This document shows positions 17,376 to 21,362 of a stretch of DNA of 34,478 nucleotides, in pieces (the first letter of the stretch is position 1; the number at the start of each line of letters is the position of its first letter). A program made the translations under genes and the position numbers. Source of the DNA: Clostridiales bacterium (GTDB lineage: Bacteria > Bacillota > Clostridia > Caldicoprobacterales > DTU083); the NCBI GenBank assembly GCA_012837325.1, contig DURK01000002.1, positions 1 to 34,478 on the forward strand, written 5' to 3'. Below the pieces are notes generated by a model. That model saw only the letters and a list, made by a program, of their open reading frames with translations, was not told where the DNA came from and did no database searches.

Positions 17376-17403
17376 TTGATAAAAAATTGTACCCTGATAT
17401 AAT
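17376..17403 (+). promoter_or_regulatory. Sigma-A promoter of speD
   Basis: TTGATA (17376-17381), a 16-base spacer and a perfect TATAAT (17398-17403), 48 bases before the ATG. Confidence 0.75.
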
Positions 17404-17451: not shown

Positions 17452-18267
17452 ATGGAGATCAAGCTCATAAAGAAGCTTAAGCTTTATGGATTCAATAACT
17501 TGACCAAAACCCTGAGCTTCAATCTCTACGATATCTGCTATGCAAAAACTCTGGAACATCGCACGGGTTATATTGAATACATCGACGAGCACTACAACGC
17601 TGACAGGCTGACAAATATTCTTACAGACGTAACCGACATCATAGGGGCCAATGTCTTAAACATTGCAAAACAGGATTACGATCCCCAGGGAGCCAGTGTA
17701 ACCATCATGATATCTGAAGAAAAGCCGAATACGGAAGAAGGTCCGCAAGATCGCGGTGAGAGCCCCGGACTGCTTCCCAACAGCATAGTGGGACATTTGG
17801 ACAAGAGTCATATTACCGTTCATACCTATCCGGAAAGTCACCCTGATGACGGCATCAGTACCTTTCGGGCAGATATCGATGTTTCCACCTGCGGCCATGT
17901 CACCCCTTTGAAGGCACTGAATTACATGATCCATACCTTCCAGCCGGATATCGCCACCATTGATTATCGGGTCAGGGGTTTTACCCGGGATGAAAATGGA
18001 AAGAAGCATTATATTGATCATAAGATCAACTCCATACAAAACTATCTTGACCCGGAAACCAGAGACCGCTACCAGATGATAGATGTCAACGTCTATCAGG
18101 AAAAAATCTTTCATACCAAAATGCTGTTAAAGGAGTTCAATCTGGACAATTATCTCTTTGGTACCGGCAAAAATGAATTGCGTCCGGGGGAAGCAAAAAG
18201 AATCAGAAGCAAATTGAAGCGGGAAATGCACGAAATTTTTTACGGACAAAATATTACGAATGCATAA
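17452..18267 (+). CDS. speD: S-adenosylmethionine decarboxylase proenzyme (long, E. coli type)
   Basis: It makes the aminopropyl donor for spermidine synthesis. It is a pyruvoyl enzyme that cuts itself. The cleavage site is LDKS with Ser119 becoming the pyruvoyl group, followed by the conserved [12 protein letters not shown] (catalytic His124). Cys147 in [13 protein letters not shown] is the proton donor. At 271 residues it matches the long SpeD class rather than the short Bacillus/Thermotoga class of about 125 residues. AAGGAG precedes the ATG. No spermidine synthase gene lies next to it in this window. Confidence 0.95.
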
Positions 18268-18432: not shown

Positions 18433-19083
18433 ATGGTTGATATGAAGGAGATAGACCACTACCAAAAACTTCTGAACAAGATCCCGGGTATTATCAATAC
18501 GAGAATCATTGTCGATGATAATGGAAATCTTACGGAGGTTCATGTCTTATCAGATCTCAGTCGGGGACCCAAGCAAATTGTCCGAGATATCCAATCCGCC
18601 CTTATTGCGAGTTATAATCTATCAGTGGACCACAAAATTATAAGCGTTGCCCAGGTTGGAGGCAGCAACATCGGCATGCGCGACTTCAGGCTGAATATCG
18701 ACAGTGTTCAGATATTCAGCAGGCAGGGTATGGTCGAAGCCCGCGTCCTTCTAAAAAAAGATCATCGTGTATATGAAGGAGTCTCTTCCGGCGGCAATTC
18801 CGCTCAAGGGCGGTTACGAGTCGTAGCAGAAGCAGCCCTGCGGGCAGTCCATCAGTTTACCAACAAGGATTTCCAGTTTGTTTTATCCGATGTGGTTCGA
18901 ATCAGCCTTGCTGATCGGAACGCCATCGCGGTATCCATTCTCCATTTTACCGGGCAAGGCGAAGAATACCTGAGCGGTTCGGCCTTTGTCCACAACGATG
19001 AAAGTGTAACCGTGGTAAAAGCGACATTGAATGCGATAAACCGGAGACTGCCGACTTGCTGTGAAGACAGCACTGACCTTTAA
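18433..19083 (+). CDS. Conserved-looking protein of unknown function, 216 residues
   Basis: I do not recognise this protein. It appears to have two alpha/beta parts. The first (1-75) contains KIPGIINTRIIVDDNGNLTEV and SRGPKQIVRDIQSALIASYN. The second (80-210) has a strand-rich segment (DSVQIFSRQGMVEARVLLKK) with GGNSAQGRLRVVAEAALRAV. This strand/helix rhythm suggests a compact soluble, possibly ligand-binding or dimerising fold. It has no signal peptide, membrane helix or catalytic motif I can name. The start is ATG 18433 behind AGGGGGGAG. The frame is open upstream to 18325, but that part overlaps the speD terminator hairpin and lacks a ribosome site. Confidence 0.75.
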   Translation: MVDMKEIDHYQKLLNKIPGIINTRIIVDDNGNLTEVHVLSDLSRGPKQIVRDIQSALIASYNLSVDHKIISVAQVGGSNIGMRDFRLNIDSVQIFSRQGMVEARVLLKKDHRVYEGVSSGGNSAQGRLRVVAEAALRAVHQFTNKDFQFVLSDVVRISLADRNAIAVSILHFTGQGEEYLSGSAFVHNDESVTVVKATLNAINRRLPTCCEDSTDL

Positions 19084-19127
19084 ACCTGTATAAAAAGCCA
19101 AAACATCATAATAAAACTAGCGAAGCG

Positions 19128-19180
19128 GATATAGCCTGCTCTATTAGCGAAAGGCAGAGAACAATATTGGAGGCTATATC
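19128..19180 (+). promoter_or_regulatory. Stem overlapping the ribosome site of the 34-residue ORF
   Basis: GATATAGCC (19128-19136) pairs perfectly with GGCTATATC (19172-19180), extendable by a G-U pair. The right arm takes the last two bases of the TTGGAGG ribosome site (19167-19173) and all but one base of the gap to the ATG. A short inner CTCT/AGAG pairing is possible. In RNA this would hinder translation initiation. Confidence 0.55.
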
Positions 19181-19181
19181 T

Positions 19182-19286
19182 ATGAAGAAAATTTGGGCAT
19201 CTTTCGTAGCACTGTTGATGAGCTTGATTTCCCTGCTGCTTGCTGGCGGCGCATTGTTTTCAATCAAAGAGATAATCAAGAAATAA
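19182..19286 (+). CDS. Small hydrophobic peptide of 34 residues
   Basis: The ORF has TTGGAGG eight bases before its ATG. It encodes a lysine-ended single-helix membrane peptide: MKK at the N-terminus, a hydrophobic core at about residues 5-27 (ASFVALLMSLISLLLAGGAL) and the tail IKEIIKK. It lies inside the inverted-repeat cassette, upstream of a membrane HD-GYP protein. The composition resembles small membrane proteins and type I toxin peptides. I know no named family that it matches. Translation is supported by the ribosome site only. Confidence 0.55.
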   Translation: MKKIWASFVALLMSLISLLLAGGALFSIKEIIKK

Positions 19287-19360
19287 ACTCTCAATTGGAA
19301 TAAAACTCACACTCTTCATGATGTTTTGGCTTTTTTTAACCATTTAAGGAGACTTGCAGC

Positions 19361-20740
19361 ATGAGCAAACGGTTGAAATTTGTTATTTCTCTACTAAGCT
19401 TATTGAGTTTTATTTTTATTGGTTATAGTATCCCCCGTCTGGAGATCAGAGAAATTCCTTATCTATTGTTCTGGATCTTTCTTGGAGCTCTTTTCGAGTC
19501 ACTTCCCATCTATTACGCCAAAGGCCGGACAGTAAGCGTTACCTTTGCCATTACCCTGGCTGCCCAGCTAAGCCATGGTGTTTATTTCGCTGCTATTGTG
19601 GCTGCCTTTACTGCAATTCTGGCTATCTTCAAAGACAGCAAAGGTACCTATAAGCATTTATTCAATCTGCCAATCTCGGTCAGTCTGATCAATCTGTCAA
19701 ACTATACCATCTCCATGTTTTTGGCAGGATGGTTTTATCACTACCTGGAGCGCATTTGGTCCTCCTTCTCCAGTATACCGGTTATGCCGATTGCAACCTT
19801 GGCGTATGTGATCTTGGTTTTTCTTTTAAACTCCCTTATCATGTCACTTTACACATCCCTGATGACCGACAACCCCTTTTTGAAGACATGGGTCAGTGGG
19901 ACACTCTGGGCCTTGCCAAACTTTATTGCCATTGCTCCAATCGGATTTTTTATATATAAGATGTACTTTCTCCCCTCCGGAATCATATATATCATCATGT
20001 TACTCGGTCCATTGCTCCTGGCCAGGTATTCCTTCAAGCTGTATTTGGATTCCAAGGAGCAATACTACAACATTATCCAAACTCTGACTGCAGCCATCGA
20101 GGCAAAGGACAAATATACCGAAGGCCATTCCAGAAGAGTAGCGTATTATGTAGAGAAAATTGCTGAAAAAATGAAGCTGTCTCACAGGCGCATCGAGTCC
20201 TTAAAGGTGGCCGCCTTACTTCATGATATCGGGAAAATAGGCATAGAGGATTCCATTCTCCGAAAGCCGGGAAAACTGACAAGTGATGAATGGGAGAAAA
20301 TCCAACAACACCCGCACATCGGCATACGAATTCTGGATGAGGTTGCCTTCACCAGCGAAATAAAGGATGCCATTCTTCATCATCATGAAAGATATTCCGG
20401 CGGCGGCTATCCCGATGCCCTGGATGGAAGCAGAGTATCGATAAATGCCTTTATTTTGGGAGCTGCAGACGCCTATGATGCCATGACTTCCACCCGCCCT
20501 TATCGAAAGGCCTTGTCCAGAAGGGAAGCCATTGACGTGCTCAAAAAAGAAAAAGGAAGCCAGTTTCATCCCAGAGTAGCGGACATTTTAATCTCCATCC
20601 TGGAAAAGGAAGAGAGAGACGAATTGTTGAATGAAACGGAAGCAGATGAAAAAAGTCCGGAATATATAGAGGGTTTGCAGTTTATGGAAGAAGCCGCCGT
20701 GATGGAAGAACCAAATGTAAGCTACAACAAACCGGATTGA
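19361..20740 (+). CDS. HD-GYP domain cyclic-di-GMP phosphodiesterase with membrane sensor
   Basis: The N-terminal 225 residues form a hydrophobic module of about six to eight membrane helices, possibly a MASE-like sensor. An HD-GYP catalytic domain follows (about 235-420). Key residues are His256 (TEGHSRRV), the HD pair His288-Asp289 (LLHDIGKIGI), His340/His341/His342 (LHHHERYSGGGYP, the GYP signature at 349-351 preceded by GG) and Asp370 (GAADAYDAMTS). All metal ligands are present, so hydrolysis of c-di-GMP is expected. The C-terminal 40 residues are acidic and probably disordered. AAGGAG precedes the ATG. The DUF5317 membrane protein follows after 52 bases. Confidence 0.92.
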   Translation: MSKRLKFVISLLSLLSFIFIGYSIPRLEIREIPYLLFWIFLGALFESLPIYYAKGRTVSVTFAITLAAQLSHGVYFAAIVAAFTAILAIFKDSKGTYKHLFNLPISVSLINLSNYTISMFLAGWFYHYLERIWSSFSSIPVMPIATLAYVILVFLLNSLIMSLYTSLMTDNPFLKTWVSGTLWALPNFIAIAPIGFFIYKMYFLPSGIIYIIMLLGPLLLARYSFKLYLDSKEQYYNIIQTLTAAIEAKDKYTEGHSRRVAYYVEKIAEKMKLSHRRIESLKVAALLHDIGKIGIEDSILRKPGKLTSDEWEKIQQHPHIGIRILDEVAFTSEIKDAILHHHERYSGGGYPDALDGSRVSINAFILGAADAYDAMTSTRPYRKALSRREAIDVLKKEKGSQFHPRVADILISILEKEERDELLNETEADEKSPEYIEGLQFMEEAAVMEEPNVSYNKPD

Positions 20741-20792: not shown

Positions 20793-21362
20793 ATGTTACT
20801 TGCAGCTACATTGGCAGCAGCTGTTATTCTCGGACTGATCCGGGGCGGCAGATTAACCAACTTAACAAGAGTAAAGCTGATGCACCCCTGGCTGGTCTTT
20901 TTATCCGTATTGCTGAGTGCACTGCTGCTGTTTTTGTCCATGTTTGATGTTGCTCTCATCCGTCCTCTTGTGATGGCTGCTCTTCTGTTACAATATTTGC
21001 TGCTGCTGCTGTTTATTTGGTACAACCGACATCTTCACTACACCTGGGTCATCGCTCTGGGCAGTTTTCTAAATGGCCTGGTTATCCTGTTAAACGGCGG
21101 CACCATGCCCCTGGCCGATTTGAGCTCTTATGTGGCATCTGATTCGGAATTGGCCAACCAGTTTTTAATCAGCGGAAATCTTCCTCTGTACCATATCGTT
21201 CATGAAAATACACTGCTGTGGTTTCTCGGTGATGTGATTCGAATCCCACATCCCTTTTCCAGCATGATCAGCATTGGAGATATTATTTTGTATGCCGGTG
21301 TCTTTCTTTTACTTCAACACCTGGTTGCCGGAACAGCACAGAAAAAAAAGCAGCCTCTATGA
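20793..21362 (+). CDS. DUF5317-type integral membrane protein
   Basis: The 189 residues have about five hydrophobic helices, with the family-like opening RGGRLTNLTRVKLMHPWLVF and a central NGGTMPLA segment after LNGLVILL. The function of this family is unknown. It often sits beside HD-GYP genes in clostridia, as here, so a shared signalling role is plausible but unproven. Its ribosome site (AAAGG) is moderate. Its 3' end carries the A-run and hairpin that act as the hsp20 terminator on the other strand, so the last codons (KKKQPL) are shaped by that element. Confidence 0.8.
   Translation: MLLAATLAAAVILGLIRGGRLTNLTRVKLMHPWLVFLSVLLSALLLFLSMFDVALIRPLVMAALLLQYLLLLLFIWYNRHLHYTWVIALGSFLNGLVILLNGGTMPLADLSSYVASDSELANQFLISGNLPLYHIVHENTLLWFLGDVIRIPHPFSSMISIGDIILYAGVFLLLQHLVAGTAQKKKQPL

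Follow-up and report, generated by a model that had tools for sequence, protein, structure and literature searches.

Staphylococcus aureus RNAIII, the delta-hemolysin mRNA, is a structured RNA with paired ends that encodes a membrane-active peptide of ~26 amino acids (aa). In the type I toxin mRNAs hok and aapA, the Shine-Dalgarno sequence (SD) is trapped and the 5′ and 3′ parts engage in long-distance pairing (PMC6733600), and in icaR mRNA, pairing of the distant 5′ and 3′ ends controls translation (PMC3868564). Here, we analyzed an element with a comparable layout at positions 19092–19335 of a 34,478-nt stretch of DNA from a Clostridiales bacterium (hereafter the window; contig DURK01000002.1 of assembly GCA_012837325.1). 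In this element, a micro-open reading frame (micro-ORF) of 34 codons is enclosed by two inverted-repeat arms and lies between a gene for a 216-aa protein (18433–19083; hereafter the upstream gene) and a gene of the HD-GYP phosphodiesterase type for cyclic di-GMP (c-di-GMP; 19361–20740), all on the + strand. Our preferred reading, which we judge to have about an even chance of being correct, is that the element acts in cis within an operon, as a regulatory RNA that controls how a membrane micro-protein is translated, and that this micro-protein works together with the neighbouring c-di-GMP phosphodiesterase. Judged by comparison of sequences, the RNA, the micro-gene and their linkage to the neighbouring genes are well supported; the ligand, the role of the peptide and the direction of control are what we infer.

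A first-pass annotation, made from the sequence of the window, had described two perfect 18-bp arms (19092–19109 and 19318–19335) with 208 nt between them, a hairpin hiding the SD, the 34-codon ORF, a run of seven T's (19331–19337) and a TATAAA (19089–19094), all of which we confirmed. A repeat-finding tool extends the inverted repeat up to 30 nt at 83%, and five of the seven T's, a run kept by a minority of relatives, fall within the 3′ arm. The arms form a long-range helix, P0. Inside it, the + strand carries the nearly invariant segment AGCGAAGCGG (19119–19128), which contains an AGCGRAG core and has no consensus pairing partner, followed by the 5′ strand of helix P1 (19128–19137), the partner of the SD region. 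Next comes hairpin P2, with its 5′ strand at 19138–19141, the conserved loop UAGCGAA at 19145–19151 and its 3′ strand at 19152–19155, after which a conserved AGAG is found. The SD of the micro-ORF, TTGGAGG (19167–19173), lies partly within P1, whose 3′ strand spans 19171–19180, and is trapped by pairing of GATATAGCC (19128–19136) with GGCTATATC (19172–19180). The micro-ORF itself (19182–19286) encodes MKKIWASFVALLMSLISLLLAGGALFSIKEIIKK. The element strand folds more stably than 200 of 200 shuffles (z = −3.2), and the reappearance of its arms, its two hairpins and its ORF in relatives shows that the element is not a product of chance.

This recurrence follows a simple pattern. The element is present as a single copy in its own 2.2-Mb genome, and of 12 other genomes in its family, 10 encode the peptide, once each; all 10 have the two arms, the hairpin that holds the SD and the ORF, with the same upstream gene on the 5′ side and, where the contig continues, the same HD gene on the 3′ side. 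A peptide profile search extended the set to other families of the order, whose members show the whole architecture with different arms. R1, a covariance model built on the 5′ part, matched 39 of 391 class genomes, each of them once, and a second model (R2) matched 34 of 398 phylum genomes, mostly outside the class. Both counts include the window's own genome, and “class” and “phylum” are the kinship labels of the genome search. One R1 match (L075) was discarded as a chance match. A genome-contig search with the HD-GYP protein returned only a distant archaeal match.

Comparison of these loci shows a three-helix architecture in which P0 closes the stretch between the upstream and HD-GYP genes, P1 traps the SD, and P2 presents a UAGCG loop near the unpaired AGCGRAG. 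In an R1-fitted alignment of 45 loci, 94.1% of the P1 and P2 cells are paired, 11 of 15 pairs show double changes, and covariation reaches 0.414, compared with 0.212 after shuffling and at most 0.12 after sliding. With 73 loci, 93.2% are paired, 13 of 15 pairs show double changes, and covariation is 0.488 (0.223 when shuffled). Because a fitted alignment is biased toward its own structure, we recounted the pairing in a structure-blind MAFFT alignment, where P2 is 96.8% paired with a covariation of 0.576 versus 0.288, and P1 and P2 together are 88.7% paired with 0.402 versus 0.217. P0, which is absent from the models, was scored as the best pairing that each locus allows between the 80 nt preceding the core and ~130 nt around and after the stop codon. 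By this measure, 65 of 70 loci score above the 99th percentile obtained with shuffled flanks, and only 7.5% pass in a mismatched-partner control in which some partners came from the same family. The five loci below this threshold include L096, L101 and L102, which have 8-bp arms made entirely of G-C pairs, and L084, which has a 10-column pairing. Among 68 loci, we counted 63 distinct 5′ arms, every one of them matched by a complement of its own (such as TTGACCGGCATTTT/AAAATGCCGGTCAA, AATAGGCCAAACCA/TGGTTTGGCCTATT and CAATGCAGTAAACCCGAAT/ATTCGGGTTTACTGCATTG), and in L009 and L012 a change from GCC to GTC in the 5′ arm is compensated by GGC to GAC in the 3′ arm.

Compensatory changes, which the first-pass annotation had named as the mark of an RNA, are thus found in P0, P1 and P2, and together with one copy per genome at a fixed syntenic position they strongly support its suggestion of a structured regulatory RNA. 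Such helices are typical of riboswitch-like elements, as is a conserved unpaired core in a fixed gene context. The latter is also seen here, since the AGCGRAG ahead of P1 and the UAGCG of the P2 loop are both unpaired and nearly invariant, and the same neighbours accompany them across the 73 loci. While the sequence features listed in the first pass held up, these two motifs and the linkage to the flanking genes had been overlooked. Some relatives carry additional pairing potential. In distant members (L079, L083, L085, L088, L092 and L093), an ACCGUA between P2 and the SD is pairable with the 5′-motif GCGG(U) and might form an extra helix or switch that is absent from the window's family. In L048, L054, L058 and L121, a CCUU-like stretch directly after P2 is pairable with the SD AAGG (CCCAT/ATGGG in L058) and could be a second SD-hiding hairpin.

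The micro-ORF is likewise conserved. Members of the peptide family are usually 25–30 aa long, with a basic N-terminus, a hydrophobic stretch, an LAGGA motif and often a Trp near the end. Start codons vary among ATG, GTG and TTG, the reading frame is preserved, and synonymous changes dominate (pN/pS of 0.27 over 55 pairs); as judged from these substitutions, the micro-ORF is under purifying selection, and a real peptide gene within the RNA is strongly supported. Conservation ends near residue 29, and the window copy continues for five more residues (EIIKK, 19269–19286), running past the usual stop of most close relatives. Neither Pfam nor NCBIfam contained anything above cut-offs for the peptide.

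The linkage to the upstream gene holds throughout the collection, and that to the HD-GYP gene nearly so. A homolog of the upstream gene was found at 73 of 73 loci (second-round E-value of 6e-65 or better), and the next gene carries an HD-GYP motif at 67 of them. Of the six others, L009, L061, L087 and L089 lie at or near contig ends, L066 carries a 466-aa ORF in which the exact G.GYP string is lacking, and L091 was not resolved. Conversely, the upstream gene was present in 15 of 99 class genomes, and the module was called beside it in all 15: 13 times by R1, once by R2 (G056; E = 4.9e-8), and once from a sub-threshold R2 score (G090; E = 0.15) combined with a micro-ORF and arms judged by eye. 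Of the three HD_5 genes in the genome of the window, just one has the RNA beside it.

The upstream protein has no Pfam family of its own. Its AlphaFold2 (AF2) model, with a predicted local distance difference test (pLDDT) score of 92, shows a ferredoxin-like N-terminal domain and a C-terminal domain like the regulatory domain of LeuA and citramalate synthase (CimA), which aligns to 3f6h with a Z-score of 10.1 and a root-mean-square deviation of 3.8 over 119 residues. The Pfam family LeuA_dimer was weakly matched in 11 of 58 members of the upstream family (best E-value, 8.7e-6). The C-terminal half resembles the LeuA/CimA regulatory domain in fold and weakly in sequence, but the protein has no catalytic domain, and this half is fused to the ferredoxin-like domain. 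Because it is never missing from the loci, the upstream protein is a candidate RNA-binding or ligand-sensing partner. In the HD-GYP protein (Pfam HD_5, 2.5e-38), the N-terminal region (AF2 pLDDT 94) has S-components of energy-coupling factor (ECF) transporters as its top PDB matches (best Foldseek E-value of 2.2e-3; target TM ~0.6–0.7), a predicted membrane domain that Pfam does not recognise. In the window, a gene for a SpeD-like S-adenosylmethionine decarboxylase (17452–18267) precedes the upstream gene, and a DUF5317 gene (20793–21362) follows the HD-GYP gene. A scan for promoter-like sites found no dedicated promoter immediately 5′ of the 5′ arm; the best site of the scanned region, an 11/12 match at 17376–17403, lies before the SpeD-like gene.

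Searches for known families and descriptions returned no counterpart. Rfam 15, which includes the c-di-GMP-I and c-di-GMP-II riboswitches, gave no match at the gathering threshold in the window or in any of 15 diverse loci, and on the element only chance-level matches appeared with E-values up to 10. In literature searches on HD-GYP together with small peptides or pheromones, with candidate structured RNAs, or with LeuA dimer domains, we found no description of the module, although preprints were not covered and literature coverage was incomplete. Because the same neighbours recur phylum-wide and no RNA family was matched, the locus looks more like a so far undescribed signalling module than like a stray repeat or a toxin. 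We could find no named family for the RNA, for the micro-protein or for the upstream protein, yet the three travel together across the phylum.

How the parts might act together can be outlined as follows. The two unpaired AGCG motifs could bind a factor, either a metabolite or the co-encoded LeuA-regulatory-like protein, and this binding would set the opening of P1, so that the micro-protein would be translated only under the corresponding condition. P0 would keep the cassette as a compact domain and shield the micro-ORF from ribosomes that translate the upstream gene; it would also bring the end of that gene near the HD-GYP start, which closely follows the 3′ arm. The micro-protein would insert in the membrane with its N-terminus inside, crossing once with a small-residue LAGGA face and an aromatic end outside, and may modulate the S-component-like sensor in the HD-GYP protein encoded next to it and thereby control c-di-GMP breakdown. 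Consistent with a trapped SD, the SD of the micro-ORF is less accessible than that of the HD-GYP gene at 47 of 68 loci (p = 3e-4).

Several observations speak against this proposal. The difference in SD accessibility is modest and absent in the window copy (0.21 versus 0.09). P1 is weak in GC-rich relatives such as L084 and L101, and SD occlusion may therefore be built differently there. Furthermore, the peptides of the GC-rich loci L084, L091, L101 and L104 are only 19–22 aa long, carry positive charges internally and show no obvious membrane span, although they retain a glycine-rich stretch and a final aromatic-x-Trp-like end. A more specific version of the proposal, which we hold more tentatively and consider somewhat doubtful as a whole, describes a four-part signalling module made up of an amino-acid-sensor-like protein, a signal-sensing RNA that gates translation, the micro-protein as a built-in ligand or subunit, and an HD-GYP receptor with an S-component fold. 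Such a module would connect an RNA switch, a ~25-residue peptide and c-di-GMP breakdown in a way that can be tested, in bacteria where little is known of c-di-GMP receptors and their signals.

The peptide could also be the signal-peptide-like precursor of a pheromone, in which case the few C-terminal residues after AGGA (e.g., NLSWW, HQTWL and LFSIR) would be released for detection by the S-component-like HD-GYP receptor while the RNA limits synthesis. Its MKK start, hydrophobic stretch and small residues fit signal peptidase, its end is the most variable part yet keeps aromatics, and NprX and Phr precursors were matched weakly below threshold. However, the matches to precursor families (Phr, NprX and PhrK) are all far under the curated cut-offs, the best reaching 16.3 bits against an NCBIfam cut-off of 75. 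Moreover, some members have charged N-terminal parts unlike a signal peptide, and there is no dedicated protease or exporter gene among the two immediate neighbours, the only ones examined. We therefore regard a pheromone as unlikely.

Slightly less probable still is a leader or attenuator of the HD-GYP gene, in which translation of the micro-ORF would decide arm pairing and thus transcription termination or a block of the HD-GYP start, with the peptide incidental. The T-run at the 3′ arm of the window copy and its close relatives, the position of the micro-ORF stop codon a median of 12 nt before the 3′ arm, and a terminator-like hairpin between the peptide and HD-GYP genes in L058 would suit such a device. 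It is weakened because at least five T's occur at the 3′ arm in just 18 of 70 loci; in addition, the peptide is selected at the amino-acid level and lacks the codon run typical of leader peptides. An intrinsic terminator as the main role was rejected, as the U-run is not conserved.

A type I toxin mRNA with a hidden antisense antitoxin, as raised in the first-pass annotation, would account for the small hydrophobic peptide, which is evident from both the ORF and the family alignment, and for the trapped SD and 5′–3′ pairing provided by P0, P1 and P2, all as in hok and aapA (PMC6733600). Its distribution is nevertheless unlike that of a toxin–antitoxin system: the element is always a single copy fixed in one operon phylum-wide, without multiplication, loss or patchiness, and is constantly linked to a sensor-like upstream gene and an HD-GYP gene. 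The first pass had also reported no antisense promoter, and our scan found none within the element, the nearest promoter-like site being a weak 9/12 match at 18992–18963, outside it. We consider this reading very improbable. The other suggestion of the first pass, a miniature inverted-repeat transposable element or similar mobile element, to which a short cassette flanked by inverted repeats lends an outward resemblance, has a negligible probability and is excluded by copy number and synteny, there being no dispersed copies, one copy per genome that at every locus sits between the same pair of genes, and arms that diverge together with compensation rather than as identical copies.

The cis-regulatory RNA that we favour shares some features with several known systems and differs from each in others. 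Like RNAIII, it joins a structured RNA with paired ends to a small membrane-active peptide, but RNAIII acts as an independent regulatory RNA that agr controls, while the element sits in an operon beside an HD-GYP gene, and no RNAIII-like trans-pairing loops were identified in it. With the c-di-GMP riboswitches (GEMM-I and GEMM-II) it has in common the position of a cis-regulatory RNA adjoining c-di-GMP enzymes, but it differs in sequence core and has no Rfam gathering-score match. The small hydrophobic peptide, the SD in local hairpins and the 5′–3′ long-distance pairing are shared with aapA/IsoA and hok/Sok; in aapA3, however, the long-distance pairing masks the SD by an anti-SD (PMC6733600), whereas P0 excludes the SD. 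Unlike aapA and hok, the element has a fixed operon position and conserved unpaired motifs, and no antisense RNA was seen, as far as sequence alone can tell. In icaR, the 3′ untranslated region pairs with the SD itself and creates an RNase III site in the mRNA of a single gene without a micro-ORF (PMC3868564), which again differs from the element. The S-component fold, known as 5TMR/S-component, is common to bacterial receptors (PMC11109136) and is the fold predicted for the N-terminal membrane domain of the HD-GYP protein; an HD-GYP output is not mentioned in that work, and the co-encoded micro-protein is an addition here. Taken together, the locus places an mRNA architecture known from toxins, with a trapped SD and paired ends, in a seemingly regulatory rather than toxic setting.
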